Positions 1-4,178 of a DNA stretch of 64,000 nucleotides are shown one piece after another; position 1 is the first letter of the stretch; the number at the start of each line of letters is the position of its first letter. Origin of the DNA: Sphingobium fluviale. GTDB lineage: Bacteria > Pseudomonadota > Alphaproteobacteria > Sphingomonadales > Sphingomonadaceae. The stretch spans positions 1 to 64,000 of the forward strand of contig NZ_SBKP01000002.1 in the NCBI RefSeq assembly GCF_004122115.1, read 5' to 3'. The notes beneath the pieces are model-generated. The model was given only the letters and a program-made list of their open reading frames with translations, was not told where the DNA came from and made no database searches. Both the position numbers and the translations under genes were made by a program.

Positions 1-42
1 GCCCAGCAGGCAAAACCCAAAAAGGAGAAAGCACTATCTTGA
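1..42 (+). CDS. C-terminal tail of an IS21-family IstB-type helper ATPase (partial)
   Basis: The first 13 codons read as an open Lys-rich tail (A-Q-Q-A-K-P-K-K-E-K-A-L-S) ending in TGA at 40-42. It lies directly before a pair of terminal repeats of the IS21 type, where the istB gene normally ends. The identification rests on position and on the IS end beyond it, because only 13 residues are visible. It could be another IS-encoded protein. Confidence 0.4.
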   Translation, partial: AQQAKPKKEKALS

Positions 43-76
43 CCCACAGGAATTAATCGAAACATAATCACAAGAC

Positions 77-125
77 GGGTCACTTCTCAGTGAAAACACC
101 GGGTCAACTCTCAATGAAAATCAAC
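77..125. repeat. Two imperfect direct terminal repeats of the IS
   Basis: Positions 77-100 and 101-125 both begin GGGTCA and share the core CTCA(G/A)TGAAAA. By eye 17 of the first 20 positions match. Such tandem subterminal repeats are the expected transposase-binding sites of an IS21-type end. Confidence 0.7.
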
Positions 126-349
126 AAGATGCCTTTTCCAGGGTCCGACGTCGAATTTCGGCGTCCATTCTGTGCCCAGGCGTCCAGATCGGTAATGGCA
201 TAGACGATCCGGCGCCCCAGCTTGTGAAAGGCTGGCCCTGTGCCGTAGCACCGATGCTTTTCCAGGGTGCGCGCGGAAAGCCCAAGGTGAACGGCTGCGT
301 CAGGCGTTCGTACGTAGCGCGGAACGACGGGTATAAATTCACCATCCAT
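104..349 (-). CDS. AlpA/RdfS-like excisionase (HTH DNA-binding protein), 3' end replaced by IS
   Basis: About 81 residues with a MerR/AlpA-type helix-turn-helix: 'RTPDAAVHLGLSARTLEKHR' is the recognition part and 'GPAFHKLGRRIVYAITDLDAW' the typical wing. Family knowledge: such proteins are recombination directionality factors that push an integrase toward excision. The start at 349 is chosen over an upstream ATG because AGGAGG lies at 356-361, six bases away. The last codons (L-I-F-I-E-S-stop) are read from the IS tip, so the native C-terminus is missing; the HTH is intact. It lies downstream of the FseA-like gene on the same strand, the order expected if that activator drives it. Confidence 0.75.
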   Translation of the reverse strand: MDGEFIPVVPRYVRTPDAAVHLGLSARTLEKHRCYGTGPAFHKLGRRIVYAITDLDAWAQNGRRNSTSDPGKGILLIFIES

Positions 350-467
350 GATGATCCTCCTGTGAAGTGCCGGACACACGGGGGTGGACCGGCGAGCAGG
401 AGGCGAGAGATCGGATTTTCAGAGGATCGGGTGAACGGACATACCGAGACTGTCTGGAATGTCCCGA

Positions 468-1239
468 TCAGATGCCGTTCAACAGGCGACGGTAGCCGCC
501 GTCGCGTGCTGCGAGCGCTTGACGGTGCCAGCGGGCAATCCGCTTGCGTTCGCTTGAGCCATCCCATTCAGCTGCCGAGTAGTGGCGCGCATCGCGGGCA
601 ATCAGGTCAACTGCGAGTTCACGTGCGCTGACACCTTCAGGCAATGCATCGAGCAGCCTCAACCATTGTACCAAGCGCCAGCGTTCGGATGGCCCGGGGT
701 CGAGAGAAACTGGTCGCTGACGCAGCCGACCAAGATGAATATGTTCATGGAAGGCCGACATTGCGGCCCGGCGCAGTTCCCAGAAGGTATCCGCAGGCAA
801 CATATAGGTGAGCGGGTCAGTATCCGATGCTTCTGTTGGGATGGTTAGTCGATAGCGTCGTCCGCCCAACGTCAGCACCTGATGTGACGCTTGATCGGTG
901 ATATGGCAGGCGATCACTGTCGCACTTTTGCCAACGGTAAGCTTGTTGAAGCTGCCAGTCGTGGCTGGTTCCGGTTGCAGCCGGATGATGGTAGCGGAGG
1001 TGGAAGGGTCCCAGATGGCGGGGCTGTGCGTGGCGGTATGTTCAGGGTCGGCCGCGAAAGACCAACCCCCAGTGCTTGGCCAGACGTTTGCGCGCTATGG
1101 GCGCTGCGTCGATGGCACGAGCATATTGGTCGCGATAGTCAGGATTGCGGCGCAGGAATTCCTGCGCGAAGTCCGCACGGTCGTGTGCTTCAAAGGCTTT
1201 GGCGTAACTCTCCGAACGCCAGTCGGGCTTCTCCTCCAT
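468..1239 (-). CDS. FseA-like excision activator (DUF6499 + DUF2285) split by a +1 frameshift
   Basis: The gene is in two frames. Frame one runs from ATG at 1239 (AGGAGA seven bases upstream) for 65 codons, with the DUF6499 signature 'PDWRS...FAQEFLRRNPDYR', and stops at 1042-1044. Frame two carries the DUF2285 part, ending 'ARDGGYRRLL'. It is open well upstream of the GTG at 917, back past 1055, and continues the family sequence as 'ADPEHTATHSPAIWDP'. Skipping the single C at 1056 after the UUU codon (Phe61) joins them into a 256-residue protein of the usual fused architecture. In Mesorhizobium ICEs the FseA activator of rdfS is made by exactly such a +1 programmed frameshift. A real mutation or sequencing error remains possible. 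Confidence 0.75.
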
Positions 1240-1864: not shown

Positions 1865-2083
1865 TCACTGTTCGCCAGCCTTGTCGAAAAATCGGGCAGG
1901 GTCGACGACGAGTTCCTCTGCGAGTCGCTCAACCGTGTCGAGCGTGGGCGAATTCGCTGCGCGTTCAAGCAGACCGACATAGTTGCGGTTAAGCCCAGCA
2001 CGGTGCGCTAGTTCCTCCTGCGAAAGCCCACTGGCGTGACGCATTCGCCTTAAATTCGTCGCAAAAATCTCCCGAAGCTTCAT
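1865..2083 (-). CDS. XRE-family helix-turn-helix regulator (QseC-like)
   Basis: 72 residues, essentially one Cro/CI-type HTH: 'NLRRMRHASGLSQEELAHRAGLNRNYVGLLERAANSPTLDTVERLAEEL'. Single-domain XRE proteins of this size commonly autoregulate and set the switch state of mobile elements; QseC of the Mesorhizobium islands is of this kind. A repeated and partly palindromic sequence lies 20-50 bases upstream of the start (2103-2133) and is the obvious operator candidate. No strong Shine-Dalgarno precedes the ATG at 2083. It points the same way as the DUF2285 genes, unlike the divergent qseC/qseM pair of Mesorhizobium. Confidence 0.85.
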   Translation of the reverse strand: MKLREIFATNLRRMRHASGLSQEELAHRAGLNRNYVGLLERAANSPTLDTVERLAEELVVDPARFFDKAGEQ

Positions 2084-2176: not shown

Positions 2177-2494
2177 TCAGCTTTCGCTGCGTCGTGCGGG
2201 GCGGCTCCAGATCAGATCGTAGCTGCCGTCTTCGGCTTCGAAGAGCTGGGCGAAGATGGGAGCTACAAAGCTCGGATCGTCGAGCTTGATCGAGAGATAA
2301 GGCCGGTCATCCTGGGTGCGTTTTTCCCATGCCGCGCCGATTTCGACATCGCCGACGAATACGCGGTGGCTGGGGGCATTCGAGCTGGCGCTTTCTTCTG
2401 CTGCGATACGGACTGATTTGGCTTGCAGTGCAAGAGTGGCGATCTGGCCACGGAATTCTCCCGAAACCTTCTTGAAGTTGCCGATCTTTGCCAT
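2177..2494 (-). CDS. DUF736 family protein
   Basis: 105 residues starting 'MAKIGNFKKVSGEFRGQI' with 'KSVRI' and 'HRVFVGDVEIGAAWEK' blocks and the ending 'IWSRPARR', all hallmarks of DUF736. AAGGAAA stands before the ATG. The family is almost always carried on plasmids and integrative conjugative elements of Alphaproteobacteria. Its biochemical role is unknown; the fold is predicted to be a small beta-rich domain. It marks this segment as mobile-element DNA. Confidence 0.9.
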   Translation of the reverse strand: MAKIGNFKKVSGEFRGQIATLALQAKSVRIAAEESASSNAPSHRVFVGDVEIGAAWEKRTQDDRPYLSIKLDDPSFVAPIFAQLFEAEDGSYDLIWSRPARRSES

Positions 2495-4074: not shown

Positions 4075-4103
4075 TTCAAACCGTTGGTTTTCTGGGAGAA
4101 AAC

Positions 4104-4178
4104 TGGAGCGGGCGAAGGGATTCGAACCCTCGACCCCAACCTTGGCAAGGTTGTGCTCTACCCCTGAGCTACGCCCGC
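4104..4178 (-). tRNA. tRNA-Gly (anticodon GCC)
   Basis: The minus strand begins GCGGGCGTAGCTCAGGGGTA, with acceptor arms GCGGGCG/CGCCCGC, anticodon loop TTGCCAA, T-arm GGTTCGAATCC and an encoded CCA at 4104-4106. The 3' end faces the mobile segment, making this the likely integration target. Confidence 0.97.

Follow-up and report, generated by a model that had tools for sequence, protein, structure and literature searches.

A split fseA-like gene with a conserved UUU-C site for a probable +1 ribosomal frameshift in Sphingobium fluviale

The activator FseA of the Mesorhizobium element ICEMlSymR7A is encoded by msi172 and msi171 together, through programmed +1 frameshifting at low frequency (PMC10359603), a system likewise treated in a 2016 review (PMC5009743) and in PMC5882170. 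According to PMC10359603, genes with the conserved +1 site are found throughout the alpha-, beta- and gamma-proteobacteria, and about 61% of 4709 FseA homologues are split with this site. The same source reports that the WGL motif beside the site is coded by the RBS-like sequence UGGGGG, which may stall translation, that QseM binds DUF6499 and inhibits R7A FseA, and that the FseA box consists of inverted hexamers 15–16 bp apart upstream of rdfS. Our literature search found no paper joining a sphingomonad with FseA, and none with DUF2285, Sphingo and "integrative and conjugative" together; DUF6499 came up in a single paper.

We analyzed a window of 64,000 nucleotides from Sphingobium fluviale (contig NZ_SBKP01000002.1), for which a first-pass annotation had proposed an FseA-like activator in two halves joined by a +1 shift. 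That annotation rightly took Mesorhizobium FseA to be a product of +1 frameshifting, but it derived the protein from two DUF2285-region genes, whereas the R7A genes carry DUF6499 and DUF2285. It also presented the architecture as a find in a sphingomonad-type element; the architecture is present, although its novelty is weakened by the distribution given in PMC10359603. The phenomenon is already in print, and the window gene, confirmed by sequence, is a further predicted FseA-type +1 frameshift gene. We propose, with a probability of roughly 0.93, that it is the fseA of an integrative element and that its halves are joined by a UUU-to-UUC +1 ribosomal slip into a DUF6499–DUF2285 activator, a reading for which the anatomy, conservation, coding constraint and synteny of the gene were observed directly.

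Anatomy of the split gene

The first half lies in a minus-strand DUF6499 frame that spans 1242–1042 (66 aa if read from GTG 1242) and ends in ...TGG GGG TTG GTC TTT CGC GGC CGA CCC TGA; frame reading, together with the PF20109 match, bore out the earlier placement of its stop at 1044–1042. Omitting C1056 after TTT (1059–1057) gives TTT GCG GCC GAC CCT and a +1 frame that is open to 468, and this frame proved, as claimed, to continue the family for 195 aa, with a match to PF10074 (DUF2285, now named RovC_DNA-bd). Counted from ATG 1239, the slip residue is Phe61 and the next joined residue Ala62. The junction has the form of the FseA-type site, TGG GGG TTG GTC TTT C at 1071–1056, in which WGL is coded by TGGGGG beside the +1 slip. 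The earliest ATG, GTG or TTG of the +1 frame is GTG 917, 46 codons after the slip (Table 1).

Because the DNA is GC-rich and holds other long overlapping ORFs, the open +1 frame is by itself weak evidence. The +1 relation of the halves goes beyond chance, since both match the family and the same split recurs in 117 of 137 loci. Sequence comparison with solved structures brought no match better than chance (best E 0.4), and a search of NCBIfam at E 0.001 yielded no match for FseA, QseM or RdfS.

Table 1 Features of the fseA region and its surroundings in the window (minus strand throughout)
Feature	Position	Strand	Basis and remarks
rdfS-like excisionase (HTH_17), ATG 349	104..349	-	Pfam; last residues differ from relatives
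FseA-box-like inverted repeat GGACAT-N16-ATGTCC, downstream of fseA and upstream of rdfS	437..464	-	published form, PMC10359603
fseA 3' half (DUF2285), +1 frame; first possible start GTG 917-915	468..1055	-	PF10074, E 3.2e-22
TGA stop of the unshifted frame	1042..1044	-	sequence reading
Proposed +1 slip site TTT-C (UUU to UUC re-pairing of tRNA-Phe)	1056..1059	-	TTTC in 111/115, TTT in 114/115 split loci
fseA 5' half (DUF6499), ATG 1239 to slip codon TTT	1057..1239	-	PF20109, E 1.3e-19; 0 frame continues to stop 1044-1042
SD-like TGGGGG coding Trp-Gly, 6 nt upstream of the slip codon	1066..1071	-	GGG bias at the Gly codon; UGGGGG in PMC10359603
Predicted qseM-like antiactivator, lone DUF2285, 87 aa	1375..1638	-	PF10074, E 1.5e-6
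XRE-type HTH regulator, upstream of the qseM-like gene	1865..2083	-	HTH_31, E 1.8e-12
DUF736 gene, part of the syntenic module	2177..2494	-	E 9.7e-33; same order on pCHQ1
3' part of tRNA-Gly (4104-4178), likely attachment-site repeat	4103..4148	-	identical 46 bp at G000:C17:3904-3949

Conservation of the split and of the slip codon

We searched 397 genomes of the window's family (DUF2285 half in 97, DUF6499 half in 91), together with seven genome contigs and four plasmid loci, taking most matches and leaving out, for example, weak or partial ones in G031, G253, G297, G007, G129 and G257:C41. Home-made profiles gave 164 DUF6499 matches in 172 sequences, or 137 distinct loci once exact repeats were removed, nearly all of them from the window's family; two of the 137, L068 and L070, come from plasmids of Mesorhizobium and Gluconacetobacter. 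The gene was split with a +1 relation in 117 loci, fused in frame in 19 and without DUF2285 in one, so the split is not required for function everywhere.

An alignment on a W-G-L-x-F-type pattern, present in 115 of the 117 split loci (115 distinct 120-nt contexts), placed TTT at the slip codon in 114, as TTTC in 111 and TTTT in three, the sole exception being L158 with AGTC. This answers the question raised in the first-pass annotation of whether other sphingomonad elements carry the UUU-C split at the same codon. The two split loci outside the pattern have TTT-C two codons downstream (L026) or TTT-C but an earlier 0-frame stop (L056). Among 80 diverged representatives, split loci sharing <10% of 11-mers, TTT was present in 79 and TTTC in 77; across these genes just 31% of all Phe residues are coded by TTT. 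The base just 5' of TTT is seldom G (5/115 split loci).

When the search was widened to 398 genomes drawn from the phylum, 43 of them, and none of 14 control genomes, had the DUF6499 family; 58 distinct matches were analyzed (30 split, 23 fused and five without DUF2285). Five split loci already in the first set were left out of the slip comparison, as were four matches without an alignable WG, three fused and one split (L221, with TTTTG inside the overlap). TTTC occurred in 22 of the remaining 24 split loci, the exceptions being L180 (TTTT) and L185 (TGTC), and in none of the 20 fused loci. In the first set, TTTC stands at the aligned codon of 3 of 19 fused loci, where it is read in frame as TTT CAC; TTTC alone is therefore no mark of a split gene.

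Seven named relatives come from separate assemblies. Six share the string TGGGGGTTGGTCTTTC unchanged with the window, and the seventh, L008, matches the 3' part of the gene only and hence lacks the junction. L008 is 94% identical and keeps fseA only from about window position 865 down, with different sequence upstream. The extra C might stem from faulty sequencing, or from a frameshift that arose recently as the gene decayed, and the setting would suit either: the assembly is a draft in 48 contigs, rdfS runs into a multicopy repeat, and core genes of the element were not found. Neither account fits the same string recurring in separate assemblies, a split in 117 of 137 loci, or the coding constraint in the +1 frame described below, and we regard both as extremely unlikely. 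The unsplit close relatives that the first-pass annotation had set against its own proposal did not appear, the junction being identical in the six.

The coding signal bears on a further alternative, that the halves are two separate proteins, with DUF2285 translated by coupling from a start inside the +1 frame, for example GTG 917. A comparable case, two separate genes without frameshift, has been argued for the Azorhizobium homologues rihF1b/rihF1a (PMC9601964); GTG 917 does precede the DUF2285 domain, and the plasmid annotations that we examined give two genes or the second only. The 46 codons from the slip to GTG 917, however, contain no ATG, GTG or TTG, and in the +1 frame they gave dN/dS of 0.26–0.58 against all six relatives (small counts). 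The same stretch read in frame 0 gave 0.79–1.7, above 1 in five of six relatives (ungapped comparison, small counts). Constraint in the +1 frame ahead of GTG 917 favours ribosome entry ahead of that codon, and separate translation of the halves therefore fits poorly. The +1 frame is also open through the slip in all 115 split loci, with a median of 28 codons to any start codon (minimum 0, a start following at once in some loci), and the TTT and WGL codons are conserved at the nucleotide level. Two separate products thus appear very unlikely, and the view that the split is regulatory rather than a mutation gains support from its conservation and from the +1-frame coding signal before any start.

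Transcriptional rather than ribosomal slippage would yield the same joined product. Polymerase slippage usually needs longer homopolymers, and the run here is of three T only, with TTTC in 111 of 115 loci; joining of the frames during transcription is accordingly most improbable.

A quick tree of 134 joined proteins, rough and with long branches, requires at least six changes of the split/fused label, three of them forced by starred branches, and groups the window with four split relatives (99%). L142, which is fused, sits on this tree next to an 11-row group in which the members listed are split. With TTC where the slip codon aligns and a changed G-run, it may represent a natural loss of the frameshift.

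Sequence context of the slip and a proposed mechanism

Synonymous codon choice upstream of the slip is biased in the split genes. GGG codes the Gly of WGL in 83 of the 115 split loci, a codon that these genes use for 15% of their glycines overall, and the Leu codon is TTG, TTA or CTT in 85 of the 113 with Leu (background 26%). In two split loci in which Gly is replaced by Arg, L162 and L185, the codon is AGG, so that GGGGG becomes GGAGG. GGG does not cleanly set split genes apart, for 10 of the 19 fused first-set loci share it.

CGA codes an Arg preceding the slip Phe in 31 of the 34 first-set split loci that have one (background 9%), in 11 of 14 further split loci and in none of 10 fused loci. 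Nine of these ten resemble one another (WYPTAAYLYxL or a close variant), so shared descent may account for the absence of CGA there. We did not meet this bias in the parts of the FseA frameshift literature covered here; one proposal, cited in the review PMC5009743, is that looser pairing in the E site promotes +1 frameshifting.

Two other candidate elements of the signal were rejected or unsupported. A stop adjoining the slip is not part of it, as the distance from slip codon to 0-frame stop in the 115 split loci ranges from 3 to 1029 nt (median 30). A rare A-site codon finds no support as a driver either: in 97 of 115 loci the 0 frame continues with CGC or CCC, and CGC makes up 48% of the Arg codons of these genes.

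From these patterns we tentatively suggest, at a little under even odds, that the shift signal forms a cassette of three parts on which selection acts at the nucleotide level, consisting of a G-run (GGGGG or GGAGG), a chosen E-site codon (CGA for Arg) and UUU-pyrimidine at fixed spacing, in which the E-site codon would tune the slip rate and hence the element's departure from the chromosome. The window's codon before TTT is GTC rather than CGA, so the window copy has two of the three parts.

In the mechanism that we propose, for which the slip, its rate, DNA binding and inhibition are taken over by analogy from the Mesorhizobium system, a ribosome on the DUF6499 frame would reach UUU with tRNA-Phe in the P site, and in a fraction of cases the tRNA would re-pair from UUU to UUC, skipping one base, so that reading would go on in the +1 frame and give the joined DUF6499–DUF2285 activator FseA. 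The upstream UGGGGG probably aids the slip, through 16S rRNA pairing or ribosome pausing. FseA would then bind the inverted repeat next to rdfS and switch on rdfS, leading to excision; the small QseM-like DUF2285 protein would inhibit FseA through its DUF6499 domain, and a low shift rate would brake excision.

The surrounding element and comparison with known systems

The window's neighbouring genes match the Mesorhizobium FseA system in their predicted functions, with QseM-like, XRE and RdfS-like genes and an FseA-box-type repeat. The GGACAT-N16-ATGTCC form is perfect in 5 of 114 split loci, the window included, and one base off in L010, with diverging spacers; all perfect or near copies fall within the window's own group, and none of 18 fused loci has a perfect copy, so a perfect window-type box in all loci was rejected. 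Of the 114 split loci, 12 had some perfect hexamer repeat at a spacing of 16 bp, where shuffles gave 3.1, and a second recurrent hexamer at this spacing, TGTCGA, was found in loci such as pCHQ1. This enrichment lends moderate support to the predicted FseA box, and only moderate because spacing 15 was at chance level (4 against 3.6 in shuffles) and spacings 14, 19 and 20 were also somewhat raised (10, 8 and 8).

Several features suggest damage to the element in this genome. Homology with relatives ends at window position 127, where the end of RdfS differs from theirs, its last residues being unlike because of a multicopy repeat at 1–126. Bases 1–110 recur nearly complete at 10 other places in the genome, all of them contig ends by coordinates, with a further 35-base match on C46. 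The repeat looks like an insertion-sequence end and resembles the IS21 type; no transposase was seen at window 1–126. A relative's rdfS is followed by RepA and relaxase, and the assembled sequence of this 99.99% complete draft (48 contigs) contained no close RepA or relaxase match for the window element. The best matches belong to another element that this contig carries (RepA 71% and relaxase 52% protein identity, DNA pieces 67–80%), and a further RepA match, of 44%, lies on C8. The intact rdfS and conjugation/replication core of a functional transferable ICE were thus not found.

The second module on this contig, L162 (G000:C22:104535-107441), has a split FseA with TGG AGG TTG CGA TTT C and, by eye, DUF736-like, XRE-like, QseM-like and RdfS-like ORFs, followed by RepA and relaxase (C22:106962-112217).

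The C17 copy of the tRNA-Gly repeat adjoins a tyrosine integrase (C17:4032-5411) and may mark the other end of the window element; a 95% match to the repeat also occurs at C3:78481-78535. Between the repeat end and the tRNA-Gly repeat on C17 lies a gene for a 1124-aa KAP-family P-loop NTPase (L258, G000:C17:384-3758). The conserved fseA gene may therefore sit in a crippled element, and with its surroundings looking damaged it may survive here only as a relic.

Judged from independent loci, the predicted FseA frameshift belongs to the regular make-up of sphingomonad-type elements, whose master regulator is liable to be cut in two or only partly listed by gene callers. To the known phenomenon we make a modest codon-level addition, the apparent strong preference for CGA before the slip, with repeated split/fused switching and the signs of a damaged element here. 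The survey yields natural split and fused alleles, along with a codon-level hypothesis (CGA in the E site, GGGGG/GGAGG upstream), and such alleles could show how bacterial +1 frameshifting is tuned without an A-site stop codon.

In ICEMlSymR7A, as in the window, DUF6499 and DUF2285 halves lie in two frames, joined by a +1 shift (msi172-msi171) that is predicted for the window. Going by the published descriptions of R7A, the two also agree in form in UGGGGG at WGL, in a QseM-type antiactivator, predicted in the window, and in an rdfS target, likewise predicted there, with inverted hexamers 16 bp apart. R7A fseA follows traI2 in a quorum-sensing operon (PMC5882170), whereas the window has the qseM-like gene upstream and rdfS directly downstream. 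Plasmid pCHQ1 of Sphingobium indicum UT26S (L069) shares with the window the order DUF736, XRE HTH, DUF2285, split FseA and HTH gene, and its fseA is likewise split +1 with TTTC. The second halves of the two genes are about 31% identical. The pCHQ1 module resides on a plasmid with RepA next in line, whereas no RepA comes after rdfS in the window. Schwartz and Curran reportedly described UUU-pyrimidine +1 frameshift sites in 1997; TTTC or TTTT in 114 of 115 loci here resembles these sites, with the difference that the upstream SD-like sequence and codon context are also conserved. In prfB (release factor 2), +1 frameshifting involves an SD-like G-run 3 nt from the slip codon. The window similarly has an SD-like G-run upstream of the predicted P-site slip, but without a stop codon in the A site and with the G-run 6 nt rather than 3 nt from the slip codon.
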